Source: Prorocentrum cordatum
Lineage: Eukaryota > Sar > Dinophyceae > Prorocentrales > Prorocentraceae
Direction of reading: 5' to 3'
Assembly (NCBI GenBank): GCA_963575745.1
Contig: CAUYUJ010016358.1
Coordinates: forward strand, 209,204 to 273,203
DNA length: 64,000 bases
A model generated the notes under the pieces. It had not been told where the DNA came from. It did not search any database and saw only the letters and a list, made by a program, of their open reading frames with translations. A program made the translations under genes and the position numbers. Shown here piece after piece: positions 26,281 to 51,928 of the stretch. Within the stretch, counting starts at the first letter, position 1. Each line of letters begins with the position of its first letter.

Positions 26281-26286
26281 CTTGCC

Positions 26287-29200: not shown

Positions 29201-31764
29201 AGGGGGCGGTCATGGCCAGCACCAAGTGGCTGAGGCAGGCTCTCAAGCAGGATGCAGCAGAGAGAGGGTTGCCCATGGTGCTGGCCTGCCCTTACCTCGG
29301 AGTCGACGTGGTGGCCCACGGGACGGCGGCAAAGAACAAGAGTGGCAAGAGGTTCAAGCGCATGAGGAACAGGGTCGCCAGGCTAAAGGGGCTGAAAGGC
29401 TCAGGCAAAGGTGTGACTAGAGGGATTGGTTTGGTGTACAAGTGCGGCCTCAAGAGATCGGTAATGTATGGGTGCAAGTGCCTGGGCATGCCAGACCACC
29501 AGCTGCAGCAGGTAAGGAGAGCGGCAGGTCAGTTGCTTCCAGGTTCCAGAGGAGCCAAGAGCCTCACCCTGCAGTTGGCGGTGCTGAAGGAGGACCCCAC
29601 CGAGGAGGCCACACTTGCGCCGGTGGTCAGGTGGGCGAGGGCCGTCTGGGAGCAGGCCGTGGCAGGAGACCTGAGAGTGCTCGTTGCAGGGGGCCAGGGG
29701 CAGGCGCAACCCTGTCGTCAGCAGGCCTTCTGTCCTGAGGCGGGTGCTAGGCTCAGGGATGCCCTCGGTGTCTGGACGGCGTTGTGGATCAAGGATCTGA
29801 GGGGCGAGAAGCACCAGCGGCAGGAGGACTGGAGCCAGTGGAGTGTTCCCCTGGTCGCAGAGTATCTGCAGGAGGCAGCGCAGGCAGGCCTCCGCAGTGA
29901 ACTCAGGAGGGAGGCGGCTTCCAAGGCCACAGGTGGAAGCTTGCCCCAGGAGGAGGCTCAGGAGGCGGAGTATCTTGCTGCAGAGGTGTGTCGGCGTGCG
30001 TGGCGGAGGGCGTGCTGGAGAAGGCGTGCAGCCTTCCGTTACCTCGACGCGCTCGACGAGGATTGCCGCGCCCAGGTCATCTCGCAGTACAGGCAAGAGC
30101 AGGTCGCGCTGCAGAAGGTGGTGCGGCGGCTGCTGGTGTCGAGAGGGGCGCAATGTCCCTGGGAAGGAAGCGAAGGAGGCATGCAGGAAGAGGAAGGCTA
30201 CCTCGGTGTCAGCACCATTGAGAGCCTGGTCGAGCTGCTGCTGGTGGCGGGCAGCCAGATGGAGATCGCGGAGGACAAGATAAGCAGGAGGACGAGTGTC
30301 GGCAGTGAGGCTGTCCTCCTGAGCGAGCAGATGAGCAACGCGTGGAGGCAGCAGCAGAAGGAGGTGGGCATGAGCCCGCAGTGGGCCAAGGTCAAAGGAC
30401 CCGCGGGGGCGGTCATCATGTCACTGAGGAGAGCGAGGTGGACCTGGCCGTCGTGGACGGTCTACTGCACAAAGGACGGCGAGATGGTGGACCTCACGGC
30501 GGTGTGCCCTACTGACGTCGGGGCGCTCCTCAGGGCTGACCTGCGCAAGGTGCTGTGGGAGCAGTGGACGGCGCAGCAGCCAGGCATGGAGAGCCTAGCC
30601 CCAGGCCCGAGGCTCCCGCCAGTGGTGGCGCAGCTGGCCGCGCGGGCTTTCCCCGCGCATGCGAAGCGGGCGGCTCGGAAGGTGGTGCTGGCGGGGGCCT
30701 GGACCATGAACAGGCTTGCCGAGGTCAGCATCACGCCGACCGACATCTGCATTGGGTGTGGGCTGGCGGTCGGCACCCCGCATCATCGTTTCTTTCGGTG
30801 CCCCGCGCTGCTCGAGGTCAGGAGGCGAGCGCAGGCGGAGTGGCAGCACGTGGCGGAGCAGCAGGAGGACAGTTTGCTCTGGACGCGTGGGCTGGCGCGG
30901 GACCCCTCGGCGGACTGGGCCCACAGGTCGGTCGACGAGGCGGACTTCCACTGCGACGTCCTCCAGGGGACGGACGCCCTCCTGTCGGGCGACATCGTGT
31001 GCGACGGCTCCAAGCTGGGCACCAGCTGCTGGGCGCAGGCGGGGTGGGCCGCGATGGCCATCGACGCGGGAGGCGCCCCCACGGTGCAGCTCTGGGGCCC
31101 CCTGCCATGCCGCTTCAAGGAGCAGAAGACGGTCAAGAGGGCCGAGATGTGGGCCTTCTTAAAGACCTTGGAGACGGTGCTGCCGCCGTGCAGGATCTTC
31201 ACGGACCACCAGGGCATCCTTGACGGCATCAGGCGGGGGCCGAGATGGTGCTTAAGTTGGGGAAGGCCGCGCGCGGACGTCTGGAGGAGGATCTGGCACA
31301 AGATCGCGGACGTGGGACTTGAGCCAGAGTGGGTGATGCATGTGAAGGCCCACAGGTCCAGAGTGGCCATCAGCAGGCTCGAGGGCTTGGCGCAGCAAGT
31401 GGCCAGGGGCAATGAAGCGGTGGACGCCCTGGCCAAGCGTGGAGCCGCGGAGGACATCGGGCACGGCAGGGAGCAGACCCTGGAGAGCCTGGATGAGAAG
31501 GTGAAGTGGGCCATCCAGAACATCGGTTGGTGGTGCCAGGAGATGAAAGAAGGGTGGCCCGACGTGCCGCCCAGGACGGGGCCGAGCAGAAGGAGGAAGC
31601 AGCAGAGGCCCTACGTCAGCCTCACGAGGCACGAGGTCGAGGTGTGTGGTGCTTGGCTGGTGTGCACGCGGTGCGGCAAGCGTGCAGCTTCGGCCAGGAT
31701 GAGGAACTTTGTAGCCCACCGTCGTTATGCAGCTTATGTCTGTAGTTATACAATGTGCAACTGA
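26287..31764 (+). CDS. LINE ORF2: endonuclease, reverse transcriptase, RNase H (interrupted at 31707)
   Basis: ATG 26287, 6 bp after ORF1. APE-type endonuclease (about residues 195-400): FQEHRL (about 201), CGDFQNAP (D328), TIDYFVVS (D369) and SAPHKP (H395). Reverse transcriptase (about 700-1020): MYVDDLCL with Asp930 and Asp931. A Cys/His motif CIGCGLAVGTPHHRFFRCPA follows near residue 1490. RNase H has a complete D-E-D-D set: Asp1573 (CDGSK), Glu1620 (KRAEMW), Asp1640 (FTDHQ) and Asp1713 (EAVDALAK). The last 19 codons after Asn1807 (FVAHRRYAAY...) are translated from the inserted TIR element. The true C-terminus lies at 51929-52517; joined, ORF2 is about 2,002 residues. Confidence 0.92.
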   Translation: MRPLVPGAQWDPPRLPRAPWRGAVQVQLRQSGKALPWDDSRWNPEGWEAEFGGCESEGHRRDVEQMDDERGGRAAAGASQRAGSVARSTPAGPVRGPRPAALARSEHGALRAGSVARSTPAGPSRGFVPAATARSQGADSGQWRGYARVLHDNRMMRLLVDKVNDDKQVVIVWTFNGSGWGTIREKLLEKKVGQQKHIYAFQEHRLKEDQWAGVTHSMRQRGYQVGGAVAVPTLGPMGEPGTSAGVGIAVPNRIGMAYVCGQTSWDWSPRGSPGRAAAAWVAVGRGGIVVATVYLWTAEQMSRRNRGLMDHVLGKLHELNMPWVLCGDFQNAPAVLAGLDSIKLIGATLVAPSAASGTCRTASGCSTIDYFVVSRELAGQVRKVAIHESWPSAPHKPVGITLDLRPQERKERILITPKKLEGISIGRAPEPPVYDEVGVFSDVAVATRTWASFIGKLEREAFALRGLEWHPRHECAGRADPPRWKERAILRGGGNHPAPQGDALWWRWLARSLQTLAGNYERLRSSSGSARARQEWCMIASDLEERFRSVSHEFRCELVGEEKERWRERCTLLAKGRWRGADQKASLDAMILEAKERSRREDQDLINERRRQWAAKLEEAAKGAAGGLHRISKPVDIWRPRRASTPQASADPLRAAEAALGEWNAVWKVNDPMQEQERRWETEPRQELPEFTEGDLAKLKKVARTFKRKTAQGVDRWHPSMLLGASDAAHWTLLQILREVERTLVWPQHAATVIFFLIPKSVAVDRAIGLLPTLVRVWEIMREPYMIEWAKANQRSWDCTAFGKAAEDAAWEVLLANEGDEVQDSDPRTLATVTAILDLVKAFERVSLHVLWERGKAMGFNTGVLAVVCSYFAMARRVNTGEAISEETRTVATIIAGSKFSVGFLKMVIQDTIDGLVVEYPLVQWRMYVDDLCLKQRGAQQWIVDSFPSVVDDSVDGFAALGLEFSLGDQGKGAVMASTKWLRQALKQDAAERGLPMVLACPYLGVDVVAHGTAAKNKSGKRFKRMRNRVARLKGLKGSGKGVTRGIGLVYKCGLKRSVMYGCKCLGMPDHQLQQVRRAAGQLLPGSRGAKSLTLQLAVLKEDPTEEATLAPVVRWARAVWEQAVAGDLRVLVAGGQGQAQPCRQQAFCPEAGARLRDALGVWTALWIKDLRGEKHQRQEDWSQWSVPLVAEYLQEAAQAGLRSELRREAASKATGGSLPQEEAQEAEYLAAEVCRRAWRRACWRRRAAFRYLDALDEDCRAQVISQYRQEQVALQKVVRRLLVSRGAQCPWEGSEGGMQEEEGYLGVSTIESLVELLLVAGSQMEIAEDKISRRTSVGSEAVLLSEQMSNAWRQQQKEVGMSPQWAKVKGPAGAVIMSLRRARWTWPSWTVYCTKDGEMVDLTAVCPTDVGALLRADLRKVLWEQWTAQQPGMESLAPGPRLPPVVAQLAARAFPAHAKRAARKVVLAGAWTMNRLAEVSITPTDICIGCGLAVGTPHHRFFRCPALLEVRRRAQAEWQHVAEQQEDSLLWTRGLARDPSADWAHRSVDEADFHCDVLQGTDALLSGDIVCDGSKLGTSCWAQAGWAAMAIDAGGAPTVQLWGPLPCRFKEQKTVKRAEMWAFLKTLETVLPPCRIFTDHQGILDGIRRGPRWCLSWGRPRADVWRRIWHKIADVGLEPEWVMHVKAHRSRVAISRLEGLAQQVARGNEAVDALAKRGAAEDIGHGREQTLESLDEKVKWAIQNIGWWCQEMKEGWPDVPPRTGPSRRRKQQRPYVSLTRHEVEVCGAWLVCTRCGKRAASARMRNFVAHRRYAAYVCSYTMCN
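31707..31737 (+). repeat. left terminal inverted repeat
   Basis: CTTTGTAGCCCACCGTCGTT followed by ATGCAGCTTAT. It is the reverse complement of 51896-51926 except at one base (C/A at 31723). Confidence 0.92.
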
Positions 31765-32557
31765 TGTTATAGAATGGACAAGTTAAGGTATAACCAAGAC
31801 AAGCAGCAAAACTCAACTTATAACTTGCATGGCATTTATACCTGCATTATAGAACACATAATTGGTTATATTGGTAGTTATGCCACTTCAAGATAAACTT
31901 GACAACCGTTTTATATTTGGATACATGTAATTATATGTGGAAATATTCCACGTATAAACAGTTATGAACAGTTACGAATAGTTATGAAATCGCGGGAAAT
32001 TTCAACATAGAAAAAGGGGAGGAGGGAAGGGGGAAAACACACAATTGCAAAAACAGATGACGCGCCCGTCCTCGTCGTGGCCCACGATTCGCGAAAAGTC
32101 GTTGTCGTCGTCGTCGTTGTCGTGAGGGGTGGCTTGCTTCCCCTATCCTGGCCGCTCCATGGCATGTATCTCGGGCAGCCAGAAAACCGATCGGCGCATC
32201 GGGGCGCCCGCTATCGGATGCGCCGAAAGGAAGAGTGCTACTGCGGCCCGAGGTGCATGCCGCGGGGCGGCTGGCGGATTACGCTGGCCCTGCACGTCCA
32301 GCGCGTCGTGGCCAGCCGCGCAGGGTCTTAGCGGAGCCCCCCAAATGAGCGTTTCGCTTGACATCCTCGCACGCATGACGTGCTCGCAATGTGATAATCT
32401 TTTGCAAAACAGAATCACGTGCCAAAGCAAGAGCGGATCAAGCGCTTCGCCTGAGACATCTTCCAACAACTACATGTCGCCACGGCGTCGTTTGAGTTGT
32501 AGCTGACCCCCCGCGTAGCTTTTCGGCTAGCAGTTGGCACCGCGGAGACGGCCAGGT
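31738..32557. other. left subterminal region and 5' flank of the transposase
   Basis: 31738-31990 is AT-rich with many GTTATA and GTTATG motifs, ending in CAGTTATGAACAGTTACGAA (31959-31978), which recurs at the right end. 32040-32557 is GC-rich with a short GTC-repeat run near 32100. No gene is recognised; a promoter for the downstream transposase probably lies here. Confidence 0.6.
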
Positions 32558-35144
32558 ATGCCTCCGAAGAAGCGGGCCCGGATTAGGCATAATGAGTTGG
32601 GCGTTTCGCAGGCTGCAATGGCGCGTCATCTAGCTGAGCAGGGGGATGGACCAACTGAGTCGGCCCACCGGCATCGGATACAGCAAGAACTGATAGATTT
32701 GACAAATATTTGGACGCCAGTTGGGCCCGTTGTTCAAGATATAGAGCTGCCCATGTTAGAAGACGGCAGCAAAATGTTGACGATTATCCATCCTGTTGCG
32801 ATGTTATATCACATGTGTGCCTCATGCGAGCAGTTCGCAGTCTTCCTTCGCCAGTGTTGCTCAGGTTTCGAGGGCGATGGCAATTTGTTGTTATACACAG
32901 ACGAATGCACGACTGGCAATCAGCTGAGGCACGACGCTATAGGGCGCGTGCAGACAGTTTACTGGTCTTTGAAAGTGTATCCACACTGGTGGAGATCTCG
33001 GCTATGCGGGTGGTGCGTCTTCACATTTTTGCCGTGCGATTGGCAATGTGCCATGGACGGCGGCTTGTCTGCTCTAGCCAAAATCATTCTGCACAAGTTT
33101 TTCATTGACGGCGCTTCGAACTTTCATACAGGCATCGCGCTGCCGTCCCGACATGGGCCGTTTGTGTTCAAATGTGGGATTGCCTGCTTTATCCAAGATG
33201 AAGCCGCCCATAAATCACTGTGTAGTGTGAAGGGCGCCAGCGGTTCGAAACCATGTTTGAAATGCAAAAACATAACAAAGGGGATTACGCATGAGCCGGG
33301 CGAAGAGTACTGGCGCGATGTGTCCGTTGCAATGCCAGAGGAGTTTGACGAGCACGATAGGGAAAGCTTCAATGAGATGATTGCCAGACTTGAGCGGGAT
33401 AAGTTGGTTTTGGGGAAAGGGCGTTTCCAGAATTTGCAACAGGTGTTAGGAGTGACTTATCATCCAGAGGCTGCCATTTTCGACCCTCAATGTAGGTTGC
33501 ACTTTTCACCGCCAGATCACGTGCATGAAGACTGGATGCACGCGGCAGCGGCCAGTGGGGGTTTTGGACAATATGCGCTGAATTCATTCCTGCTCAAATC
33601 GTTCCAGCATGGCGTGGTCGATGCAGATTTGGACGCGTTTCAACAGCAGATCTGCTGGCCATCGAATCGTGACGCCTTGCATCGAGAATTTTTCAGGAAA
33701 CGAGTCACGCAACCGAATCCAAATAAAAAGGAAGGTTCGAAGCATGAGCCCCATTTGAAATGTTTCGCATCGGAGACGATCCAGGCAACCCAGGCTGCAG
33801 TGTTATTTGCGATTGTCGTCATCATTCCCATGAATATTTTGACATCGGAATGCCGCTGCTTATTCCTGTTGAACCAGATGTTCGATATCTTAGGCGGGGG
33901 CCCTGCAGAAACAAATGGGGGCGCCACGATTCCCCAGACCCCCCCGCCCCCTCAAAAGCATCCCTGGGTTCAGCGGGGCGCCTTCTGGGCGAACTACTGC
34001 GCCCCCATGCTGTCGCGGGCCCCCGAAGGCCAAGGGGACAAAGCGGTCGAACACATCCCGTTGTTGAGGGCCGTCGTGCGAGAGCACCACAAACTAGTAA
34101 CGACGCTGGCGCGTGCCCTCCCACCCCCGCATTCTCTGTTGATCCACCACCCCCCTCGGCACCCCTCCCTGCCCGGACACTCCGCCCCATCAGCATCATC
34201 CTCCGCGTGCATCTGACGCTTTGCTGGCCCCGACCCCCCGAGCCTCACTGTCCTCGCCCATTTCCAGCCCCGCTTCCCTTGCGACCCACGCAGGCGGGGC
34301 GGGGGAGGGCGGGGATGAAGCGGGGAAGCGGGCAGCAGGAGGGGGGGGGAACGAGGGGGCGAGGAGGAATGAGACGATGATGAATAAAGGGGGAGGGGAT
34401 GGGATGGAGGATAGGGGTTTTAGAGAGGACGAAGACGAGGGCGAGGAGGAGGACGAGGAAGAGAGAAGAGGAATCGCCATGTTATGAGACACGCAGGTCG
34501 GACCCGCAAGGGCGAGCGGACTCATTAGGCTCTACGGCCCGAACGTTGCAAAGCCGAAGGTCCATAGCATGTACCATGTGGTTGACATGTTGGAGGCCCT
34601 GGGCGTTAACCTCACTTGTTTCGCGGGGGAGCGCAAACACCGAGAGTTGAAACGCATTACACGCAATAACCGTCCAGGTGATGCGGGGCAGTCCCACATG
34701 GTGAGGAAGTCAGTAGTGAAGTATACCCACGACTTGATAGATGAAACTTCTTTCGAGCCCACCTTCCTTATCGCCCAGTCCGCATCGCCAGAGCACATTC
34801 CAGTGATGCGGGCGATGTTTCGGGAGCTGGGCCCTGTCATTTATAAGGCCAAGAGCGCTCATAGCACGGTTGGCATTTTGAAAATAGGCGATTGCGTTCG
34901 CGGTATCAGCGCCGGCCAAATCTTCGTCGGCCTAGCCGAGTTGTTTCTGTCAGGGGCCCACAACATTTCGGGCGAGCATTTTTTTGTGATTCGCTTGCAG
35001 GCTGCCGAGCAACTCGAAGGGAGGCTCTGGCGCTTCACTGGGACATCCGTTTTCTATCCCCTCGAGTGTGTCAAAGGGGCCGTGCCGTACGTTTTGAAAT
35101 CGGGTGGTTTTCTCCCCTTGCTCCCGATGCTCGAGGCCATGTGA
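32558..35144 (+). CDS. transposase-like gene, two exons (CACTA/KDZ-like, dinoflagellate type)
   Basis: Exon 1 32558-34096 from ATG (MPPKKRARIRHNELG), exon 2 34497-35144; about 728 residues. Motifs: LLLYTDECTTGNQL (Asp115), a Cys pair in VKGASGSKPCLKCKNI, an acidic-aromatic-His box in HEDWMHAAAASGGFGQY, and in exon 2 KPKVHSMYHVVDML...CFAGERKHRELK. An acidic strand followed by a CxxC module, a DWMH-type helix and an ERKH box is the pattern of Tnp2/KDZ-like DDE transposases. I infer the catalytic residues and cannot confirm them. The candidate intron 34097-34496 has GTAACG...CACGCAG ends and matching phase 0 and holds purine-rich simple sequence; boundaries are tentative. It is the first gene inside the left TIR, the usual place for a transposase. 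Confidence 0.65.
34097..34496 (+). other. candidate intron of the transposase gene
   Basis: Begins GTAACG after AAACTA and ends CACGCAG, phase 0 on both sides. It contains a C-rich block then GGGG and GAGGAN simple sequence (34290-34480). The unspliced frame instead stops at 34216. Confidence 0.5.
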
Positions 35145-35340: not shown

Positions 35341-36144
35341 ATGGCAGAGCCAGCCGAACTCCGAGGATATCTAGGACCTTTTCCAGTTCTCGGCACACTT
35401 ACCGACGATGATCGGAAAGAGATTCTGCGCCAGACGGGCGTCAGAGCGTCTGCGCGTGCGCCACGCAAGGGGCATGTTGCAGGCCAGCCACGCGATCTGT
35501 CATTTAATGGCCCTCCTGAGCGGCTCAGGGAAGCGCACGAGATGGCAATGGTGATGATAGAGAAGCACGGCCGCACTGGCGGGAGAAAGACAGCCAAGCA
35601 GCAGCGCCAAGAACAGCAGGAGGCCATGGTGAAGAGGGTCTTGAACGCAGAGCGAGAGTTGGCGAAGGCGAAGCTGCAGATGGAGCAGGTCAGTGGTTCC
35701 AGCAGTGCAGTCTCCAGCTCGGCCGGTTGCGAGCCGAAGAAGATCGATGTCCCTTCCGACACCATGAGGCTGGAGCCGTCGGACGCGCCCATGAAGGTCG
35801 CCACCTCCCGCGCCTCAGTCAAGAATCATCGTCGCATCCCTCATGACTCGACGCCCGTCGAGCCCGAGGAGGCCCGCGACGCGTTCAACACCTCGGTGAC
35901 GGAGAAGGCCTCGGAGACGGAGCCGCTGACTGAGCCCGAGCGGCCCTCGGACACTCTGCTGTTGTCTTGCCCTGTCTCACAGCCGAGCGCTCCCGTCTCA
36001 GGTGTTGCAGGTGACTGGAATTTGGATTTCTTAGAGCCCGTCCAGTACTCCAGCGGTGAGTGGAACTTCGTGCTCGCTGATTACATGCACGACGTTCGCC
36101 GAGAAGCTTGGCGTGAAGTGTGCCCTGGTTGGGATCAGTGGTAG
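35341..36144 (+). CDS. KH-like-domain protein
   Basis: 267 residues from ATG 35341 (MAEPAELRGYLGPFPVLGTL). Residues about 25-80 resemble a KH RNA-binding fold: RKEILRQTGVRASARAPRKG, then LSFNGPPERLREAHEMAMVM and IEKHGRTGGRK. The core GxxG loop is degenerate (PRKG). A Gln/Glu/Lys-rich helix follows (about 80-115), then a Ser/Pro/Glu-rich linker and a C-terminal Trp-rich stretch (GDWNLDFLEP...GEWNFVLADY). It lies 197 bp after the transposase stop on the same strand. An RNA- or DNA-binding role is inference. The frame is open upstream, so an earlier spliced start is possible. Confidence 0.55.
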   Translation: MAEPAELRGYLGPFPVLGTLTDDDRKEILRQTGVRASARAPRKGHVAGQPRDLSFNGPPERLREAHEMAMVMIEKHGRTGGRKTAKQQRQEQQEAMVKRVLNAERELAKAKLQMEQVSGSSSAVSSSAGCEPKKIDVPSDTMRLEPSDAPMKVATSRASVKNHRRIPHDSTPVEPEEARDAFNTSVTEKASETEPLTEPERPSDTLLLSCPVSQPSAPVSGVAGDWNLDFLEPVQYSSGEWNFVLADYMHDVRREAWREVCPGWDQW

Positions 36145-36951
36145 CGTCGACGCGTGCAGGAGTGATTGTGGCCCCAGATTCGTCGGCGTGCCCGAACGAC
36201 GGTGGCCAAAGGCTTTCCGAAGCGGGCCGGGCGCTCGCAATCATTATTTGGATCAATTCGCGCTCACGCGGATCCTTGCTGCGCACTTCGGTGCAAAACT
36301 GAATGATGGCGAGGAGAGGGAGGGGGAGGTGGATGAGGCGGGAGAGGAAGCGGATGAGGAGGGGGCGGGAGAGCGCCTGCGGTGAAGTCGGGGGCTGACG
36401 GAGGAAGGAGGAGGAGCGAGGAGTGCGAGAAGGGGCAAGGAGGAGGAGGGAGGCGGTGAGGAGGAGGAGGGGGGGGCAGAAAAGGAGGAGGAGGAGGAGG
36501 AGGAGGAGGAGGGGTAGGACGAGGATATAGGTAGCGATGAGAGGGGGAGGGCAGAGGGGAGCGGCGAGAGGGAGGAGGGGGAGGAGGAAGAGCATGTGCA
36601 TGATAGGAGTGCCCAGGGGGAAAGGCACCAGGAGGGCCCATTATTTTGTACGGCTGTAATTATACGGTCTAGAGCCTAGGATAGGAATCTTGAAGCGCGA
36701 GCCCTCGTGAGCCCCCCTCGCTCGCTGGCAGGGGTTAGCGTTTCAGCCAGCGTCGCTGCTTGAATTCATGTGCCAACAGAGCCATGATATGTACGAGGCA
36801 ATCAATGGAACAAAAAATACAAAAAACTTGTCACGAACATCAAATGAATAAATGCAGCGGGTGGGGGCTCACGAGGGCCCGCAAGATGAGGCCTGCATTG
36901 GTTTCTTAAGGGAAAGGGCCATGCGGCTGGGCATGATCCCCGTCCGCGCTT

Positions 36952-37011
<60 letters not shown>

Positions 37012-37355
37012 GTCTGTCACCACCCCTCCTTATCCTACATCCTCTTCCTGATTTCGTCGTCGTCGTTGGCCCCGTCGTCGTCGTTGCCCCGTCGTCGTCG
37101 TCGGCCCGCGTCGTCGTTTTCGAGCCCTCGCAGGGCCCAGGATAAGCCGAACATCTTCTCTCAGAATCTGGATCTTTCCCCAAGGCTCGTCTGAATTTGA
37201 TGTGTATACCCGCCGACGTCCAAGGGCGGAAAGGGCGGCGAGCCCTCCCTTGCAAGGGAGGGCTCGCCGCCCTTTCCGCCCTTCCCCTAACGTAGCTTTC
37301 TGGGCTGAGAGAGGCAGGCTCGCCGCCGATCGGTCCGTTTTCGACCTGCCCTGCG
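36145..37355. other. purine-rich, (CT)n and (GTC)n simple sequence
   Basis: GGAGGA-rich tract 36305-36600, (CT)n 36952-37008, GTCGTC tracts 37055-37117 and a small inverted repeat around AAGGGCGGCGAGCCCTCCCT (37228-37247) with its complement at 37253-37283. No gene seen. It separates the KH-like gene from the zinc-ribbon gene. Confidence 0.6.
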
Positions 37356-39529
37356 ATGTCGATTAAGAAGGGTGCCTCTATTGCTGCTGCGGCGGCCAGC
37401 AAGCCGGATGCCCCACGCGCGCCGGCTGCCTCTGCTGCCAAGGCGTCCAAGGACCCGCGGCAGCCCCAAAACAAGGTGGGGATTAGCCTGACGAAGGACC
37501 CAACCATATGCAGCTGCGAGTACCGCATTGTGGGTACCGCTTTCGATGGAGCTCCCTACGGGGCCGCGAACCGTGTGAGGGGATGGGCATGCGGTGGGCG
37601 GGAGGGCGCATGCAAATTCTGCCGTCGGGAACTTCGGTGGAGCTCTCACGGGCCACGAATCGTGTGAGGGGTGTGCCGACCTGGGTGGCGGCACGCGCGC
37701 GCACACACAAGTGTATGTATATAGTACACCGTTGTACATCGCCCTATAGTCCTATTGCCCTAGACCACCATTGCCCTAAAGCCCTATAGCCCTATAGTCC
37801 TCTAGCCCTATAGCCCGGTAGTCCTATAGCCCTATAGCCCTGTAGCCCGACAGCCCTACAGCCTTATAGCCCTACAACCCTATAGCCCTAGCCTTCTAGC
37901 CCAATGGCCCTATAGCCCTACAGCCCCATAGCCCTATAGCCCAATAGCCCCATAGCCTGATAGTCCTATAGACCTGTAGCCCTATAGCCCGACAGCTCTA
38001 TCCCTATAGCCCAATAGCCATATAGCCACATAGCCATGTAGCACTATAGCCCCGTAACCCTAAAGCCCTACAGCCCTATAGCCCTGTAGCCCTGCAGCCC
38101 TCTAGCCCTATAGCTCAGCCCTAAAGCCCTTCAGCCCAATAGCCTATATCCCTATAGCCATATAGCCCTATAGCCCTATAGCCCCATAGCCCTATAACAC
38201 CATAGCCCCCAAACAAATCTGATTGGGTTATTCTCGGGTATCATCTCTGTCAAAACGAGGACCGAACACAGGATGGTTGGGAACTGCAGTTGGGAGGCCG
38301 GCAAACGAGGGGGGAAAGAGCTTGGGGGCCCTGGGCGCAAGGCTCGAAGTGCGCGGCGAGCCAGCGCATTCATGAGGTGCCCTACTTGATGCCCCCAGCA
38401 CACTTCAGAAAATGTTAACTCCTCACTCCCCTCGCATTTCCCCCCTTCACTTCCAACCCGCTCCCCCATCCCCCTCCTCCTCCGTCGCCCGCCTCTCTGC
38501 CGCGGCAGAGAGGCGGGCTGTGCATGTTTTTTGCTTTCCCTGCAGGGCGGCACGAGCGCTGGTCAGCCGAGCGCCTTCGTGATGCCGCCCGGCGCCGTGG
38601 GTGCCTACGACACGGACGCGCAGATCCCAGAGGGCCACCGCCTCTGCAACAACTGCCGCTTCATCTTCACCGACTCCTACGCCACCCATGTGCAGGGAAA
38701 TCAGTATCGCTGCAAGGCGTGCAATCGCCTCCAGAGCCGCGTGCAAAGGATGTGCACCAGCCACAACATCGACTCCTTCGACGTTTTGAGCCCAGAGGAG
38801 CGGATCTCGTTCTTCAGGGAGGCGCAGGATTACTTCGGCGAGGACTTGCAAAAATGCATCACGGAAAGCATCAGCCGCTCCCAGATCAAGCGCGTCACCA
38901 CCAAGTTCAGGACATTTGGCCCCATGGAGTCGAAGTCGGACGCGGCGAAGCGCTACGAGGGGCAGCCTGAGAAGTGGGCCAACATCCTGAAGACGGCGAA
39001 GCAGTTCACGTGCCCGGTCACCCTGGACGAGCTGATCCAGATCCCCAAGTACGAGGCCGAGACGGAGGACGTGAATGAGTGGGAGCAGATGCGGAAGCGC
39101 GAGGCCACTGGTGAGGGCAAGCTCAAGCTCAAGAAGATGAAGCTGGAGAAGAAGGAGGAGGGTGAGGAGCCATCGCCTCCGAAGGCATTGACCAAGGGCC
39201 AGAAGAAGAAGCTGCAGGCGCTGAAGACGAAGTTCGGGAAAGCCTCCATGGACCTCGCAACCCAGATCGCCGCAGCCAGCGCCCCCGAGAACCAGGATGT
39301 TGTGCCCGCGAAGCAGGTGAAGAAGATGCACGAGCAGCGCACGATGTGCACAGAGTGGAGCTGCGCCGACGGCAAGATCGACAAGATGATCAACGCTGAG
39401 AAGACCAAGCACGACGACTTTGCCGACCTCCTGAATGCGGGCGAGAAGGCACTGGAGCAGGTGGACTACATGTGCATGCACGTGGCCAAAACCATCGAGC
39501 TGTCGAAGGATGACGAGGTGGAGGCGTAG
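37356..39529 (+). CDS. zinc-ribbon and coiled-coil protein, two exons
   Basis: Exon 1 37356-37574 (ATG, MSIKKGASIAAAAASKPDAP...), intron 37575-38545, exon 2 38546-39529; about 400 residues. Junction: CGT|GTGAGG and TTTCCCTGCAG|GGC, both phase 0. A second in-phase donor exists at 37665. Exon 2 has two CxxC pairs (RLCNNCRF, YRCKACNRL), suggesting a zinc ribbon, then a mixed helical domain and a Lys/Glu-rich segment (GKLKLKKMKLEKKEEGEE). The C-terminus is helical and acidic (TIELSKDDEVEA). Protein of unknown function; binding to nucleic acid is inference from the zinc ribbon and basic stretch. Confidence 0.65.
37575..38545 (+). other. intron with an 8-bp CCCTATAG minisatellite
   Basis: GT-AG intron of the zinc-ribbon gene. 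About 37740-38210 consists of imperfect copies of CCCTATAG. The 3' end has a good pyrimidine tract before CTGCAG. Confidence 0.75.
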
Positions 39530-43500: not shown

Positions 43501-46500
43501 CGAAATTCTTCACTTCACTAAACCGGACCCAGGACGAACTCGCTACGCTCCAGTCCCGCGGGAGATCCAAGACTCCCGCCGCCGCCCGGGGACGTTGCTG
43601 CATTGCGGTGCTCTGGTCACTGTTAATGGCTTCCGCGGGCTGCAGCGGCTCACTTCCATGACTACCCCGACTCACGAATCCAGTGGTTGGTCTGGCTCTA
43701 TGGGTTGGTTTCGTTGTGTCGGTTGATTTTATGCTTGGTTGGCGGTCGGTGGATTTCGCGTTGTTCATTGGTGTCGTGAAGTGATTTGTCGTTTGGTTGG
43801 TCAGTGCCGTTTTGTTGATTCGTGCCGTTTTGTTGGTTGGTGTCGTTTCGTTGGTTGGTGTCGTTTTGTTGCTTGGTGTCGTTTTGTTGCTTGGTGTCCT
43901 TTTGTTGGCCGGTGTCGATTTGTTGGTTTGTTGGTTGGTGTCGGTTTGTTGGTTGGTGTCGTTTTGTTGCTTGGCGTCGTCCTGGCGGCGTGGCCGATAA
44001 TCGGCGGCCTGCAATGGCGCCAGGATTTGTTTCGGGCCAGCCTTGATCGCCCTCATCATTCTCATATTCGTCAGCGTCAGCACTCGTCGCCCCCATCCGC
44101 GCACACATGCGGCCCTGGTACGGCTCTCACGCGGCCCTGCGAAGGCCTTCACTGTGCTCCCCAAAGCTTTCTGAGGGGCCCCCCAGAGGCCCCAAGAGGG
44201 CACTGGAAATTGTCGCTTCCAACTCCGCCAGGCGGAGGTCAACAAGGGTCTCACTGGTGCACTTCCAGGAATCGTCGTTCGATCCTCTTGGGGCCCTCCT
44301 GGGGCCTTCTGGAGCCGTCTTGGAAGCTCCGAGCGGCTCCATGAAGGCGCCGGGCGATATCGCTTCCAATTCCGCCAGGTGGAGTTAGACCAGGGGCTCA
44401 CTGAGGCCCCTTTTTGCGCCCTCCTCTGCCTTTGAAAAAGCCCCGATGGGGTTCTTCAGTGCCGTCTTAGGGCCCCTAAGAGGCCTCCAGTAGGGTATTG
44501 AAGTTATCGCTTCCAACTCCGCCACGCGGAGTTGAACCCAGGGCGGCTCTCTATGGCCCTTTCGGGGCCTTCTTAGAGCTTTTCTGAGGCCCTAAGTGGG
44601 CCCTGGGAGGTGTCATTTTCACGGGCGTTGAAAGTGACACCGCGGAGGGCCCTCTTGGGCCCTTCTTGGGGCCTCTCTTGGGTCCCTCTGGGAGCCCTCT
44701 TGGTGCCGCCCTGGGGCCTTCTCGGGGCCTTCTTGGAGCCTTTCTGGTGCTCTTTAAGTGGGCCCTGGGAGGTGTCACTTTCACGGGCGCTGAAAGTGAC
44801 ACATCGAAGGGCCCGCTTTCCCTCGTAGCGCTGCCCGTGGCCGGGGCATTGTGCAGCGCATCCCTCGTCGAACGTATTTTGTCGGACGCGTGGTCGAATT
44901 CCGCCAGTTCGGTCGAGATGGTGGTCAAGCGGTTCGGTTGCAATGTAGCCATGCGGATCTGAGCTTACCATTTCTTGCCATTTTGGCGGGGATCGCAGGA
45001 GCGTTTGTGTTGTGATCAACTGTGCTCGATATATCCAGCGGCAGCGTTTCATCCCAATATATTATTTTGAAAAAAGTCAGCAGGGGCCAAATTGCTGATG
45101 TGAAGCAACATAGGTCTCGTATCCTCGACCACCACCCCGTTCTGTATATCCTCCTCCTCATCCTCCTGGCCCCCCCCCGCTTCCACCCCCCAGTCAGCCC
45201 TCTCTTTTCTTCCTTCCGCCTGTTAATTCCGCTCCGATAGCCGTTTTGGCTGAAGTGACGGGCCTCGGGCCACGCCACGCCAACGCAAAGCCAGCCAAGG
45301 CTTCCACTGAAACGTTTCGATGACATCCGCATTTTCGGATCGCTTCCCGACGGAGCAGGAAATCGACGCAGCGATCGCCATGGACGATTCCCTGGCCGCC
45401 GAGGCGGGCCAGCTCGAGCTCGCAGAACGCGAAGCTCAGCTCGCAGAACACGAAGCTCAGCTCGACCACTTCTATCGCCAGTGCTACGGCGAGACCCCAG
45501 AACTTCCCATTGCAGCGTCACCATCGCCGCAGGAGGTATGGGAGGTGATCGCAGTGAGCGACGACAGCCAGGGGGCCGCGCTCTCAGAGCACGCAGACCC
45601 GCCTGAACAGGCGAACGAGATGCAAGCTGAGCTCGCTTCCTTGATCGCCCTGGCGCTGGTGGCTACAAAGGACACGGTGCTTTGGCTGCTAGACCATTGT
45701 GCAGCGAGGGGCACGGGCGATAATGCCAATGCTGACGATCCCCGCCAGCGAGACCGGAGCCGGTCGCCGAGACTACCGAGAAGCGCGTTTGCTGCAGCAG
45801 ATCCGTTTGCTGGAGCATGCTCGGGAGAGACTCCCGAGGATATCGAGAGCCCGTCGCGGTACAGCGAATGGCTCGCGCGCAAGCGCCCTCCCGTTCTCAA
45901 CGATGGCGAGGAGCCTCAGTCTGAGGCTCCGCCTCCAGCAGAGGCTGTAGAAATGTAAGCTTGCGCGTGTCGCCTTGCTGTAGCCAGCCTCCATCTCCTC
46001 TCACCCTCTCCCCGCACACACACGCGCGCGCAATTCGGCGCGCGTCCACGATTACAAAGTTCCCGAGTGAGTTTTACGGGGGAAGAGGAGGAGGAGGAGT
46101 AGCGGGGCTGGGGTCAGGAGAAGGAAGGGAAGGAGCGGCAGGAGGGACGGTAGCCTTCTCCTTCCACTTGCACCCCCCTCCCCTCGCTTTCTCACCCCAT
46201 CCCCATTCCTCGTCCCATGGCCGGCCCCGCGCGCCTTGACCCGCAGTGTCGGGGCGGCGGCTTACTTCTTACCCCAGAACCGCAGCAGAGTCTTCACACG
46301 AGGCATGCGGAAGAACATCGTCCCTGCTGTCCCGAAGCCCCTGCCTCCATTCGGCACCCGTCAGTTGCGCGAAGTTCTCGGCAAGTTCCCCCCGATCGAT
46401 CGCGAGAGCCTCACCGAGGCTCAGAAGGAGAACGTGAAGGCCCAGGAGGAAAACGTGAAGCAGAAGTTTCTCGATGACGAACTCTCCGAAGATGACCTCG

Positions 46501-47096
46501 TAGTGATTTCGACCGATCGCGCCATCGACGGCGTCTACACCCCTCCTTGCTTCCCCAACTTCTGCCCCACTCTCACAACGCGTAATTTTTATCTGTTCGT
46601 CATGAGTGTTTCAGATATCCTGAGCGAGGTTCCTGATAAGGACCGCTCGTTCTTTAGATTCCTGCGCCCGACGGAGCGACTTGCGCTCCAGGGCTTGCCT
46701 CCTAGCGCCGCGCTTCACATGCCCAGCCATGCGGTTGCGGTCAAGGGCGCTGGGAATGCGTTCCCGCCGCCGCTTATAATGGCGGTGATGCACCCAATGA
46801 TCGACGCGCTGCAGCAATCGAGCTTTGACTTGGGGAGTTGGCCCCGCGCTCCTAGGCCCGGCTGTGCTGAGCTGCCAATCTACGATCGGATCGAGCGCCT
46901 GCGCATGGCCCCATTGCCTAAGAAGGCGAAAGCCAAGGCAAAGGCGAAGGCCAAGCCAAAGGCGGCAGTGCACCACAAGCCAGCAAGCAGCAGCAGCAGC
47001 AGCAGCAGCCAAATCCTCAATTCGAAACCTGCGGCTTGCAAGCGCATGCGGGTTAAAGTGGAAGTCAGCTTTGAGAATTCTGATGCTGACGAGTGA
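40572..47096 (+). CDS. cytosine-5 DNA methyltransferase, four exons
   Basis: Exons 40572-40904, 41234-41487, 41688 to about 41775, and 46278-47096; about 497 residues. Motif I variant RPLRIASPCVGLHSCAVALD. Motif IV TGPPCPPWSGQG with the catalytic Cys codon at 41306-41308. Motif VI LENVTG (41429-41446). Exon 3 holds FLFILRKMAPEFSWRSDKLL. Motif VIII QNRSRVF begins exon 4. The target-recognition region is VPKPLPPFGTRQLREVLGKF onward; then motif IX RFLRPTERLALQGLP and motif X VKGAGNAFPPPL. The tail is Lys/Ala-rich with a Ser run. Junctions 1 (GA-AG, phase 0) and 2 (GT-AG, phase 2) fit exactly; the donor of intron 3 is uncertain (41775 or 41778). The expected product adds methyl groups to DNA cytosines. 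Upstream exons are possible. Confidence 0.85.
40905..41233 (+). other. GA-AG intron of the methyltransferase
   Basis: Joining CCCAAG|GACGGG to CCCGAG|GATGGG yields GPKDGNVLN without a break. Both ends carry AGGA, a short direct repeat across the junction. It is 329 bp with purine-rich simple sequence inside. Confidence 0.75.
41488..41687 (+). other. GT-AG intron of the methyltransferase
   Basis: GACAG|GTTTCG and TCCCAG|GTTCCT, phase 2, joining DR to FLFILRK. It contains a tandem duplication of about 50 bp (TTTAGGTAGGTAGCACCTTG at 41520 and a near copy at 41563). Confidence 0.75.
44610..44802. repeat. pair of GTGTCACTTTCA hairpins
   Basis: 44772-44802 is GTGTCACTTTCA-cgggcgc-TGAAAGTGACAC, a perfect 12-bp stem. 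44610-44640 is the same with one mismatch. The two are 162 bp apart, each followed by GGGCCC-rich minisatellite. Confidence 0.8.
45233..45255 (+). other. relic spliced leader
   Basis: TCCGATAGCCGTTTTGGCTG followed by AAG matches DinoSL with one inserted A and two substitutions. It lies 65 bp upstream of the ATG at 45320. Confidence 0.7.
45320..45958 (+). CDS. small acidic protein, probable retrogene inside the methyltransferase intron
   Basis: 212 residues from ATG 45320 (MTSAFSDRFPTEQEIDAAIA). Residues about 25-52 form a Glu/Ala/Leu coiled coil (AEAGQLELAEREAQLAEHEA). A hydrophobic helix at about 105-122 (LASLIALALVATKDTVLWLL) and an Arg/Ser/Pro segment follow. There is no intron, and a spliced-leader relic lies 65 bp upstream, which together suggest a retroposed mRNA. 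It sits on the same strand inside intron 3 of the methyltransferase. I do not recognise the family. Confidence 0.55.
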   Translation: MTSAFSDRFPTEQEIDAAIAMDDSLAAEAGQLELAEREAQLAEHEAQLDHFYRQCYGETPELPIAASPSPQEVWEVIAVSDDSQGAALSEHADPPEQANEMQAELASLIALALVATKDTVLWLLDHCAARGTGDNANADDPRQRDRSRSPRLPRSAFAAADPFAGACSGETPEDIESPSRYSEWLARKRPPVLNDGEEPQSEAPPPAEAVEM

Positions 47097-47774
47097 GCGC
47101 GTGCGAGCTTCACTACAGAAGAGCCCCATGGGCCATGGGGCCCTGGGGCGCACCCTACCGCTTTACGCACGCACGCAGAAGCACGAATACACGCACACGC
47201 ACACACGCACACGTGAAGCATGCTCGCGCTCAGACTTTTAAAGTTTTGCCGATGTGGGCCGCACAGGGCATTTCAACGCTATCTAGCGCAGGAGAGGCTC
47301 GCCCTCCTTCGCTTCGCAGTCGCTTTATACAACGTTGCCGCCGAGGAAAACACCCCACGAGCCCCCTCTGGTGCCTTCGTCGCCCCTGCCCTCAGTGCCG
47401 TCTTATCGGGACTTGCAGGGTCTCTGATCCCGAGAGCTCCCCCCTCCCTCTCATTCTCCTCCTCCTCCTTCACTTTTCTCAGCCTCCTCATCGTCGTCGC
47501 CCTCCTCCTCGTCCTCTTCACCCTCTCCCTCCCTCTTGCGTCCTCTCTCTCTTCTGATTCCTTATCATCATCCTCTTCCTCTTCCTCCTTCATCCCTCCC
47601 TTCCAGCGCGGGCCCCGAGAACGCCTGGCCCGCCCGAGCGGGGTGAGCATGAGGGGGGGGGCAGCGGTGGAAGGTGGAGGAGGGAGGCGGGAAGGTGGAG
47701 GAGGGAGGCGGGAAGTTGGAGGAGGGAGGCGGGATGAGGCGGGGGCGAGCATAACAACCGCCATCCTATCAAGT
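47097..47774. other. intergenic, C/T-rich and G/A-rich simple sequence
   Basis: CACACG run near 47190, CT-rich block 47440-47600 and four copies of a 21-bp GGTGGAGGAGGGAGGCGGGA repeat at 47670-47740. No gene seen. Confidence 0.65.
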
Positions 47775-47790
47775 GCCATTTTGGCTCAAG
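47775..47790 (+). other. truncated spliced-leader relic
   Basis: GCCATTTTGGCTCAAG is identical to the last 16 nt of DinoSL, 56 bp upstream of the ATG at 47847. A 5'-truncated leader is the expected relic of a reverse-transcribed mRNA. Confidence 0.75.
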
Positions 47791-47846
47791 ACTCGGATCC
47801 ACAACCCTGCGTTAAGGCCCGATCAAGGCGCCAATTTCTCCGCGAC

Positions 47847-48994
47847 ATGGCGCAACCAACGTCGACGATGGCCGACCACTTCCGAGCCGTGCTGCACTTC
47901 CTGCGTGCCAACATCGACGCCAGCGGGAATGATCCTGACAGGGTCGCCCCGTTGGCGCAGTCGGCGAAGGCGTCCCTCTTCGAGTGCCTGGGGAGAGTGC
48001 GCAGTCTGAACTTCAACGACGCGGCCGACTGCATCGCCCTGCTCTCCGACAGCTCTTTCACTGCACCGCAGAGGGCCGAGATCACCGATGCCGTGAACGT
48101 CAAAGCCACGCACGTTGGAGCGACCGCGCCGGGCGGCCGCAGGGCGAAGGCCCAGGTGTTCTTCACGCTGCAGCACTTCATGACTAACCGCGATTGGGTT
48201 CAACTCGGAGACGCCGCCATGCCAACCAACCAGAAGTTACGCGTGATCGCGAGGAGGTTTGAACGCCTCGGTTGCGTGTTCCCTACTGAACCCACGTTGA
48301 TCCACGCCGTCGGGATGTTGTTGCTGCACAACAACAGCGGGGACATCAACAACGTCGATCCGACGAACGCTTGGACCCTGAAGAACGACCTCAAGAACAT
48401 CCTGCAGCAGGTCAGAGCCAGGGTCAGGCTGGCGCACTACGGGCAGGTGGCCAGATTCCCTGACAACCCGCACATGCTGCACCAGATCTACCCGCACATC
48501 TTCGAGAGCGTCTACGAGTCCGACCCGCCGGCGCCGAACCAGGTGAACGAGATGCTGCTTCACCAGCTCAGGCGGGAAGGCGAAGCCACAAAATGTAAGG
48601 AGGTGGATGGAGGGAGCTAGCAAAGTAGCCAGTGAAAGCGAAGGGGGGTGGAAGGGGGAGGGAGGAGGGACGGGGAGGGGGAAGGGAGCGGGGGAAGGAG
48701 GGCCATGGCGATTTCAGGTGGCGAGCCTACCGATTTCCACCCTTTGACCCCCTGCCCTCAATGCTGATCGTCTCGAACGAAACGCTTGTTCGTCGAAAGA
48801 CGATGGGAGTGTGCAATTTTTGAGAGGATGTCTCAAGCAAAACTGCGACTCTGGGGAATCGGCTAACAATAGATGTCTGAAAGTTCGGCCAATGAACGCG
48901 CCCCTCAATCTCCTTCCCTCCACCCTCCCCCCATCCCGCTCCATCCCCCCTTCCTCCCTCTCGCTCTCCTTCTCCCACCTTCTCTCTCTCTCTA

Positions 48995-49038
<44 letters not shown>

Positions 49039-49950
49039 CCCCTCCATCCTTCTCCCTGCATCCGCCCTCCTCCTCCTCCTCATTTTTTTGCGAGCGTTTG
49101 GCTTGTCGATTCCTTCAGGAACCAGCTGCCGTGCCGCAAGACCCACACCGCAATCGCCAGCCACGGCAGGATGCTTGCGATCACCGACGGCCGCACCAAC
49201 CACCCGCAGCAGCAGAACGCACTCGCCCAGCTCGCTATCGGCCTGATGGCCGGCGGTGGCGGCGGAGAGATTCCTTGCCTCCCAGGCTTTCGCTTGACCC
49301 CGCTCGGCCAGGATATCGCCAGCGGCCGTCGCCAGCAGCCTCCAACGACGCCGGCTACCGTGGCGGCGCCTGCAGCGGTCGGAGACGCAGCCGCGGTGGC
49401 GCTCGCGGTGGCGCCCGCGGCGGGGCCCGCGGCGGGGGCGCCGCTGGCCTTGGCGGACGAGGACGGCATCGAGGTCGCGGCCGCTGGCCTCGAGGATGCT
49501 GTTACCCCAAGCCCGAAGCCCAAGGCCGGCAAGGGCTCGGGCGGCAAGGTCAAGATGTCCATCGATGAGATGGCGGACTCGTTCGCCAAGAAGCTGAAGA
49601 AGGACATCGCGCAGCCAGAGAAGCTTGTCCCAGCCGCCGGCTCCGTGTGCAAGCGCCCTGCAGCGGCCCCTGTCATGAAAAAAGCCAAGCCAGCAGCGGT
49701 CTCTTCGGACACGGTCATGACAAAAGCCAAGGTGGGGACCAGCAAGAAGGTGTGGCCTCTGAAGTACCCAGGGGTTCCCAAGGCCGAGAAGGACGCGGTG
49801 ACGGTGGGAGACTTTCGCCTCATGACGGACATGAAGCGGCAGCAGTGGCGCATCAGGAAAATTGGAACGCGGCCAGACAAGGCCTTCAGCTGGAAGGTCG
49901 ACGGGGCCGCGTCGTGGAAGCGCATGGCTGAGTATTGGCAGAATGCTTAG
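47847..49950 (+). CDS. two-exon protein of unknown function with spliced-leader relic
   Basis: Exon 1 47847-48571 (ATG, MAQPTSTMADHFRAVLHFLR), exon 2 49119-49950; 518 residues. The junction CTCAG|GCGGGAAG and TTCCTTCAG|GAAC is a GC-AG intron with matching phase 2, giving MLLHQLRNQLPCRKTHTAIA. Exon 1 is helical (about residues 1-240) without recognised motif. Exon 2 has a Gly-rich stretch, an Ala/Pro linker, KMSIDEMADSFAKKLKKDIA and a Lys-rich region (KRPAAAPVMKKAKPAAVSSD), then a compact C-terminus (RQQWRIRKIGTRPDKAFSWK). It could be a DNA- or chromatin-associated protein, but that is a guess. Last gene before the right TIR. Confidence 0.6.
48572..49118 (+). other. GC-AG intron with (CT)n
   Basis: GCGGGAAG...TTCCTTCAG, 547 bp. 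It holds a purine-rich block (48640-48710) and a long CT run (48980-49035). The unspliced frame would instead stop at 48620. Confidence 0.7.
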
Positions 49951-51759
49951 GCTGGTATCCCTCAGCTCTAGAGGCAGGCTCGCCGCCGAAGCCGCATCCG
50001 TCGCCCTGTGCGATGGCGGGATATATCATGTTTTTATGCATTCGATTTGGGGGGGGCCGCCGTGCATGAGCTGCGCAATGATCTTATTCAGCCTCCGCTC
50101 TCAACCTCTCGACGCCTCGCCTCGTTCGCTCGCAGCGCCATGCCTGGCCAAAGCCACAGCTGCTGGGATGGGCCCAGCGACTCAAGAGGGGATTCCAACC
50201 GCGCAAACCATGCGCAACCTGAGAAACATAAAACAACTACAACATAAAACAAACAAATCCATGCATCCATCCATCACCGCCGCTATCCAAGTATCATCGT
50301 CCTCCTCCTCCTGCACCCCTTACTACAGCCAGCGCTGATGCCCCATCCCCTTCCTGCTCCTCTTCATGGCCAGGCTCACTGGCCACCTCCCCTCCGTTTC
50401 CTGATCGCCGTCAGCCGCCCCTGCGACCTGCGCGACGGCGACAGCGATAGACTGAGGAAACGACGGCGATCAGGAGACGGAGGGGAGGTGGCCGGCGAGC
50501 CTGGTCACGACAAGGAGGGGGAGAGGAGGACGGGAGAACCCCCCTTGAGCTCTCTCTCCCTCTCTCTCTCTCAGTGGCTGGCGAACCTGGCCACAAGGAG
50601 GAGGGGGAGGAGGACGAGAGAAACCCTATTGAGCTCTCTCTCTCTCTCTCTATCTCTCTCCCTCTCCCTCTCTGCTGAGCGGCGCACTGACAAGTGCACG
50701 TCTGTGTGAGGGGTGCGCCAAGATGGATCGTCGTGGAGCCTTTGGGGCTCTTATATGGCCGTCTTGGGGCCCGTATATAGGGCGTCTTGGGGCCCATATT
50801 TGGGCGTCTTGGGGCGTTTGGGGCCCGTCTATAGGGCATCATGGGGCCCTTGGGGCGTTTCGGGCCCGTCTATAGGGCATCTTGGGGCGTTTGGGGTTCG
50901 CTTGCCATGGGCATCTTGGGTAGCCCAGGCTTCCGCCTTGCCGCTCCCTGGGTCCGCAAATGGGGGCTCCCACGGGCGGGGGCGAAGGTCACGACCCCCT
51001 CCCCTCCAACGCCAAGTGCTGGGGGGGGGAAGGGTCGTGACTGCCCGTCCCAACCCCTCCTTCGCGGATCCCGCTTTTCTCGGGGCCCATATATGGGCGT
51101 CTTGGGGACCTTATGGGCATCTTGGGGCCTACTGGGCATCTTGGGACGCCTATAGCCCAGGTTTCCGCCTTGCCGTTCCCTGGGTCCGCGAATGGGGGCT
51201 CCCACGGGCGGGGGCGAAGGTCACGACCCCCTCCCCTCCAACGCCAAGTGCTGGGGGGGGGAAGGGTCGTGACTGCCCGCCCCAACCCCTCGTTCGCGGA
51301 TCCCGTTTTTCTTGGGCCCGTCTTGGGGCTCTGCGTGCCACTGGGCATGCGCCTATGCGCCATGTGGATGTATACTGGCGGCCCAATACATAGGCTCTCG
51401 GCCCTGCACGTCCCTGATCGTTGGGTCTGAGACCCAACGATCTGCGTGAGGGGTGCAATATCCATAGGCCTTCGGCCCTGCATGTCCAGACTCCACGATC
51501 CGTGTGATGGTGCCAGGGGCACGATCCGTGTGAGGGGGGCGCGTGGACGGGGGAGCAGGAGGCAAGTTCCTGCATGGGTTCGCGCCCACAAGTTCCCGCC
51601 CATAACTCCCCGCCCACATGTCGGGTTGGTTGGCGCCCGTCCGCGCGATCGAGCGCGGTGATGCTAAAACATACCGTTCCCCGCGCGTCGTCAAAACATG
51701 TGATGGTTTCTCGCCGCGATCGAAGATGCGCTTCTCTCGCGCCGACATGCGTTTTATGA
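49951..51759. repeat. right interior of the TIR element: repeats, no gene
   Basis: 50440-50690: two diverged copies of a GGCGAGCCTGGTCACGACAA-type unit with CT runs. 50725-50905: units of GGGGCCCGTATATAGGGCGT type. 50920-51085 and 51150-51315: a ~165-bp direct duplication (GGCTTCCGCCTTGCCG to TTCGCGGATCCCG). 51417-51440: hairpin CGTTGGGTCTGAGACCCAAC. Frames here mirror the repeats and none looks coding. Confidence 0.65.
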
Positions 51760-51895
51760 AAACGCCTAAACAGTTACGAGCGGTTATGAAACAGTTATGA
51801 ACAGTTATAACTCTTTTATACCCAGATATAGGCAACTATAACTATTCATAAACAACGTTATAAATAGTTATCTTGTAAGTGTGCCTAACTAAGTT
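51760..51895. other. right subterminal AT-rich region
   Basis: AT-rich, with CAGTTATGAACAGTTATAAC (51793-51812) and GTTATAAATAGTTAT. The CAGTTATGAACAGTTA motif is shared, in direct orientation, with the left subterminal region at 31959. Confidence 0.7.
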
Positions 51896-51926
51896 ATAAG
51901 CTGCATAACTACGGTGGGCTACAAAG
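51896..51926 (-). repeat. right terminal inverted repeat
   Basis: ATAAGCTGCATAACTACGGT then GGGCTACAAAG, the inverted copy of 31707-31737 with one mismatch. Confidence 0.92.
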
Positions 51927-51928
51927 AA

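Follow-up and report, generated by a model that had tools for sequence, protein, structure and literature searches.

The window analysed here, 64,000 nucleotides of the dinoflagellate Prorocentrum cordatum (GenBank assembly GCA_963575745.1, contig CAUYUJ010016358.1, forward-strand positions 209,204 to 273,203), contains a 20.2-kb cut-and-paste DNA transposon with terminal inverted repeats (TIRs). The element is inserted in the second open reading frame (ORF2) of a long interspersed nuclear element (LINE) and carries a transposase-like gene together with a gene for an apparently intact cytosine-5 (C5) DNA methyltransferase, an arrangement supported by its ends, the target duplication and the gene models. 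The best explanation of the locus, with a probability of about three in four, is a complete, recently moved and probably autonomous transposon with accessory genes, which include the methyltransferase. The structural part of this explanation is highly probable; the ends, the duplication, the gene order, the open frames, the family of the methyltransferase and the recurrence of its neighbourhood with a helical protein gene can be observed directly. That the enzyme serves to mark the element itself is a tentative proposal, with odds clearly below even.

Ends and insertion site of the element

The left TIR (window positions 31707–31737, + strand), which begins with CTTTGTAGCCCACCGT, and the right TIR (51896–51926, − strand) are identical at 30 of 31 positions, as in the original prediction. 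The whole window was scanned for inverted pairs of 31-mers, 5–40 kb apart, with an identical 12-base seed in common and at least 28 of the 31 positions matching. The scan gave 7033 pairs before filtering for low complexity, and those remaining after it are confined to six pairs of 2-kb bins. In five of the six the best pair is a GAGTCGTTCGGG satellite, and the sixth contains the TIRs of the element in seven overlapping pairs; the TIRs are the only such pair outside one satellite. The sequence TTTGTAGCCCACCG, with up to two mismatches, occurs at only two sites in the window, both of them ends of the element (0.24 sites expected; two reached in 1 of 100 shuffles).

The empty site was rebuilt by a script, in which the element was removed along with a duplication of 0–8 bp. 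The LINE frame stays open with duplications of 2, 5 and 8 bp, to codons 2004, 2003 and 2002, respectively, and among these only the 2-bp duplication has matching flanks (AA/AA), the flanks of the other two being different. Duplications of 0, 1, 3, 4, 6 and 7 bp stop the frame at codon 1835–1866, and this includes the 1-bp case, where the flanks also match (A/A). The matching flanks and the restored frame place the two copies of the target site duplication (TSD), AA, at 31705–31706 and 51927–51928. Removal of the element and one AA in silico rejoins a single ORF2 of 2004 codons (the count starting at the preceding stop), which confirms the predicted host context, and completes a C-terminal cysteine motif read by eye. 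The part of ORF2 located 5' of the insertion (26281–31706, + strand) shows weak matches to endonuclease, reverse transcriptase (RT) and RNase H domains (E 0.00015–0.00033, none reaching the Pfam cut-offs), and the 3' part (51929–52517, + strand) is assigned by continuity of the frame after removal of the element. With the LINE frame open on either side of it, the element probably inserted recently. The locus thus has the TIRs and, in the in silico reconstruction, the TSD and the clean empty site of a class II TIR transposon.

Inside the TIRs lie AT-rich subterminal zones with shared motifs, as had been proposed. In 50-bp steps the GC content is 0.26–0.44 in the left 350 bp of the element, 0.24–0.48 in the right 200 bp and 0.66–0.72 in the adjoining host DNA. 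Each zone has a 10-bp tandem array detected by Tandem Repeats Finder (TRF), the left one at 31953–31988 (+ strand) with the unit TATGAACAGT and the right one at 51769–51808 (+ strand) with AACAGTTATG, which is the rotated unit of the left array in the same orientation. The unit AACAGTTATGA, with up to two mismatches, is matched 13 times in the window, a number reached in none of 100 shuffles: three matches are in the left array, five in the right array (one on the other strand) and five elsewhere. Subterminal repeats are typical of CACTA elements. The window as a whole has a GC content of 0.61, and 59.7% was reported for the P. cordatum genome (PMC10666404).

A 167-bp direct repeat of 95% identity (50921–51087 and 51153–51319) lies close to the element's right end. 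Around the LINE, a satellite with units of 25–28 bp, GAGTCGTTCGGGCTCCTCGTGGTGT, is present in both orientations at 15172–15586, 17546–19958, 23497–24949, 58707–59389 and 63000–63899.

The cytosine-5 DNA methyltransferase

The methyltransferase gene is modelled as four exons on the + strand. For the conserved motifs we take PC to be motif IV, ENV motif VI, RxR motif VIII, QG motif IX and GNxxxP motif X. Exon 1 (40575–40904) contains a motif I-like SPCVGLHSC and is outside the Pfam match; this exon and its motif are placed from alignment with relatives alone. Exon 2 (41234–41470) contains motif IV (GPPCPPWS) and motif VI (ENV), exon 3 (41686–41757) is a short segment (APEFSWRSDKL) preceding motif VIII, and exon 4 (46245–47096) contains motifs VIII (LPQNRSRVF), IX and X (GNAFPPP). 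Joined at predicted splice sites, the exons encode 496 amino acids with no internal stop. The spliced model matches Pfam PF00145 over residues 123–396 (E = 4e-19; score 69.6 bits, cut-off 22), and separate exon pieces pass the same cut-off by themselves with 36.5 and 28.5 bits.

The best match in the Protein Data Bank (PDB) is M.HaeIII. The significant stretch of this alignment covers GPPC, ENV and Q.R.RVF; QG and GNA belong to a weak stretch of 2.9 bits. Taken together, the alignments with M.HaeIII and with the relatives contain all of motifs IV, VI, VIII, IX and X. The predicted C5-methyltransferase stands, and its gene appears to be intact.

The placement of exon 3 was compared with 200 shuffles using five relatives as queries. 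With four of them no shuffle scores as high, and with the fifth, P0009, 17 of 200 do and the best match is elsewhere. A methyltransferase split in two by a 4.7-kb gap had been considered and is rejected in view of this short exon at 41686–41757. The intron between exons 1 and 2 (40905–41233) and that of the transposase gene (34111–34528) are predicted to start with GA and GC, respectively, and not with GT; intron starts other than GT are known for dinoflagellates. The last intron of the methyltransferase contains a 212-codon open frame (45320–45958, + strand). The first half of this frame shows a base periodicity like that of coding sequence, its GC content at third codon positions (GC3) is 0.66, and no Pfam match was found for it.

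Twenty-seven proteins match the methyltransferase at E ≤ 0.001. When they are placed in a tree together with the window protein, 20 rows (P0005–P0023 and the window) are separated from eight rows (P0024–P0031), labelled here bacterial-type, a name of the kind that three of them carry. The split has a support of 100/100 in a bootstrap that had not settled, and the order within the 20 rows is mostly unresolved. The nearest row is P0010, with 49% identity over 235 columns. The organism is known for two of the 19 grouped relatives, P0010 from P. cordatum and P0011, by its taxid, from Gymnodinium catenatum.

An enzyme of this family might act on RNA or on host DNA, as a counter-defence or to the benefit of the host, and not on the element. 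In line with this, the weaker PDB matches include tRNA (DNMT2) enzymes, and CpG is barely lower in the element than around it: an observed/expected ratio of 0.86 for the element compares with 0.93 and 0.99 for the flanks and 0.77 for the LINE, and the ratio exceeds 1 at the AT-rich ends. However, in the family-profile search M.HaeIII (1.3e-19) and M.HhaI (about 1e-13) come ahead of DNMT2 (1.4e-6), and action on RNA or host DNA is regarded as unlikely. This ranking of bacterial DNA methyltransferases speaks for DNA as the target, though it does not single out the element.

The transposase, the other genes and their recurrence

Six genes are described in the element, all on the + strand: those for the transposase, a "KH-like" protein, a C2C2 protein, the methyltransferase, a helical protein and a basic protein. 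The co-orientation noticed originally, the further gene included, is thereby borne out.

The transposase gene has two exons. Exon 1 (32558–34110, + strand) encodes D114, D213, C232xxC235, D324, H327 and E405, numbered from the residue after the initiator methionine, and exon 2 (34529–35144, + strand) has 32.5% identity to the C-terminal part of P0002; joined at predicted splice sites they give 722 amino acids with no internal stop. Four database proteins match exon 1 with its in-frame continuation at 88, 41, 43 and 26% identity, the first of them representing 12 member sequences. D114, E115, D213, E214, C232, C235, D324, H327 and E405 are identical in all five aligned rows, and C232xxC235, a C(2)C between the second D and the last E of the putative catalytic residues, is likewise present in all five. 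The H(4)H pattern (H322..H327) is found in two rows of five, the window and P0001, while H320 is kept in four and H327 in five. For the window protein neither the PDB nor Pfam, searched up to E = 1, gave a match, and among the five rows there are two unrelated weak Pfam matches. The open gene, its relatives and the invariant acidic residues suggest that the element has its own transposase, which matches no known transposase family.

The D..D..C(2)C..H..E order appears closer to that of the EnSpm/Plavaka (CMCT) transposases than to anything shown for KDZ in the excerpts of the literature available. The order is shared with CMCT elements, and the 2-bp duplication with PlavakaA (PMC12730594) and, more generally, with the 2–5 bp of CMCT. 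The differences are the ends, CTTTGT..ACAAAG as against CA..TG in most members or TGT..ACA in PlavakaA (CAC..GTG or TGT..ACA in PMC12730594), H(4)H in only two of the five rows, and the Pfam result, in which the profiles gave no similarity to transposases of EnSpm/Plavaka members. Because H(3-4)H is seen in only two of five rows and there is no Pfam or PDB match, the protein is best described as probably working like an EnSpm/Plavaka transposase and is not filed as a member. The original prediction had pointed to KDZ transposons as a precedent, and this link is not supported: Pfam gives no match, and the duplication is 2 bp as compared with the 8 bp reported for Zisupton.

The KH-like gene (35341–36144, + strand) encodes 267 amino acids and has four relatives, 88–90% identical over about 84 N-terminal residues and 68–72% over the full length. 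No KH domain or fold was matched in Pfam or the PDB, and the KH assignment is not supported. The C2C2 gene (38582–39529, + strand; 315 amino acids from a chosen methionine, the start being uncertain) has a GC3 of 0.89 and a relative, P0034, at 73–78%; its four cysteines are kept in both proteins. The predicted zinc-ribbon gene thus stands as an open C2C2 gene, and its likeness to a zinc ribbon is by eye. The helical protein gene (47847–48620, + strand, 257 amino acids) has relatives P0032 at 87–88%, P0033 at 99% and, beside a methyltransferase, P0010 at 38–39%. Its predicted structure has a pLDDT of 63, and no match at E ≤ 0.001 was found in the PDB (221 at E ≤ 10) or among viral models (192 at E ≤ 10). 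The basic-protein coding region (49100–49950, + strand, exon start uncertain) is joined to the helical gene in P0033. Searches with pieces of three of these genes returned seven proteins (two for the helical, one for the C2C2 and four for the KH-like gene).

The methyltransferase and the helical gene are neighbours in two diverged loci, that of the window and that of P0010. P0010, on a P. cordatum contig of 211,545 bp, combines the N-terminus (47%) and the C-terminus (48%) of the methyltransferase with, after them, the helical protein (38%), in the same order as in the window. In P0033, on a P. cordatum contig of 134,363 bp, the helical and basic genes form one model with four substitutions in about 500 aligned residues, leaving out those at the joint and in gaps of 14 and 13 columns; it is probably a second copy or another allele. 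In viral contigs the TIR pattern has no match. Short peptide patterns, one or two for each protein and not exhaustive, gave 18 matches for the transposase, 121 for the helical protein and 11 for the methyltransferase, with no confirmed relative among them.

This recurrence bears on the idea that the transposase and the ends are real and that the methyltransferase and its neighbours are passengers, fragments of host genes that were picked up by chance and do nothing for the element. The missing close relatives of the methyltransferase, where other genes of the element have them, fit such a history, as does a GC3 of 0.59–0.67 in the transposase compared with 0.70–0.89 in the others (0.66 in the intron frame), which hints at different origins. 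But the methyltransferase and the helical protein also adjoin at another P. cordatum locus that has diverged strongly, the pair of helical and basic genes is found again at 99% identity, and the methyltransferase motifs and frame are kept across four exons, so that chance capture is judged improbable. As an observation in itself, the GC3 of the transposase gene (32558–35144) and that of the other named genes (35341–49950) differ as if the two sets had separate origins or were subject to different selection on codons.

The locus could also be composite, a smaller transposon enlarged by nested insertions, with the methyltransferase belonging to a different nested element. Fixed nested insertions have been described for giant Ectocarpus transposons (PMC12477816), and several tandem and inverted repeats lie within 42.5–45 kb and 50.4–51.4 kb, in addition to the extra open frame in the 4.5-kb intron. 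Yet the element contains no other TIR-like pair of at least 28/31 at a distance of 5–40 kb, its main genes are co-oriented, and Pfam finds no RT or other transposase in ten + strand interior pieces. A composite origin is the least probable of the alternatives.

Several observations weigh against a single complete and functional element. The splice sites are predicted, and the last methyltransferase intron, of 4.5 kb, contains another open frame. The transposase has neither a Pfam nor a PDB match, and with a pLDDT of 40 its AlphaFold model cannot be used. In the P0010 model the exons for motifs IV and VI are missing and Pfam gives no match, which may be a fault of the gene model or decay. No methyltransferase relative above 49% was found in the protein database, although relatives at 68–99% exist for the KH-like, C2C2 and helical genes and up to 88% for the transposase; because of this, close relatives of the element may lack the methyltransferase, or its introns may hide it from gene callers. 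Finally, a clear trace of self-methylation in the form of CpG decay was sought in the CpG ratios of the element and none was found, though little decay would be expected in a young insertion.

Elsewhere in the window, a tandem array of 101-bp units occupies 62017–62979; it has a higher-order unit of 300 bp, and the matches are 92% and 96%.

Related elements and the possible role of methylation

A close precedent is Mariner-1_OLpv, a virus-integrated DNA transposon in which the transposase is accompanied by an endonuclease and a Cyt_C5_DNA_methylase protein (Bao and Jurka 2013, PMC3627910). It shares with the window element a transposase combined with a C5 cytosine DNA methylase. Mariner-1_OLpv and Mariner-2_PGv are, however, virus-integrated Tc/mariner elements with three proteins, including a nuclease, and another transposase family, while the window element is 20 kb long and lies in a host genome. 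Sola1-1_Ec32, a giant DNA transposon of 21.5 kb in the alga Ectocarpus, likewise has an accessory gene for a DNA methyltransferase, but it belongs to the Sola superfamily and carries ParB and a methyltransferase of the N4C/N6A type on the opposite strand (PMC12477816). The giant EnSpm elements of red algae (Petroll et al. 2025, as cited in PMC12477816) and the Plavaka giant repeats of Amoebidium (PMC11244446) are also large, belong to the same broad transposase group and have accessory genes; the only hits of the Amoebidium genes are in dinoflagellates or red algae (PMC11244446). In contrast to the window element, no C5-methyltransferase is named for them in the excerpts of PMC12477816 and PMC11244446, and closer cases may exist. 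Fungal CMCT elements carry accessory DNA-modification genes of the TET/JBP type (PMC12730594); the window element has a methyltransferase in place of a demethylase.

Retrotransposons of dinoflagellates and of a charophyte carry DNA methyltransferases as well (PMC5890265). SymbioLINE-Dnmt and SymbioDIRS-Dnmt3 are, like the element described here, dinoflagellate mobile elements with C5-methyltransferases, but they are retrotransposons with intronless DNMTs, as opposed to a DNA transposon with a four-exon gene (PMC5890265). A literature search, with most subscription journals outside it, found no DNA transposon with a C5-methyltransferase in a host genome, giant elements of dinoflagellates included. 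The claim that the combination appears new thus holds for host genomes within that search and is narrowed by the C5-methyltransferase of Mariner-1_OLpv and by the published giant algal transposons with other DNA methyltransferases.

In EnSpm-type elements the transposase binds subterminal repeats and cuts at the TIRs. By analogy, the DDE-type, EnSpm/Plavaka-like transposase of the window, which we infer to be functional, would most likely bind the 10-bp subterminal arrays, cut at the CTTTGT...ACAAAG ends and insert the element with a 2-bp target duplication, the accessory genes and the methyltransferase among them moving along with it. The methyltransferase, possibly directed to its target by the helical or the C2C2 protein, might then mark the element's own DNA, and such marking could tune the binding of the transposase or shelter the element from silencing by the host. 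That the enzyme marks or hides the element or its ends, as first suggested, is favoured because terminal methylation is able to prevent transposase binding, as discussed in PMC3627910, and because the authors of PMC12477816 suggest for Sola1-1_Ec32 that accessory proteins bind and modify their own transposon. A broader version is more doubtful still: a lineage of giant DNA transposons in dinoflagellates might have kept, through deep divergence, a dedicated self-marking module, made of the C5-methyltransferase and its helical partner and perhaps steered by the C2C2 protein, which would methylate the ends of the element and so control the timing of its movement or how the host sees it.

Methylation is usually a weapon of the host against transposons. 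With a cytosine methyltransferase of its own, defined ends and a clear insertion site, the element makes the use of methylation by a transposon testable. It would add a DNA transposon of a host genome to the retrotransposon and viral examples of methyltransferase carriers, and it may account for some of what is unusual in the methylation of dinoflagellate genomes. The finding suggests that some jumping genes, beyond being silenced by the epigenetic tools of the host, bring one of their own.

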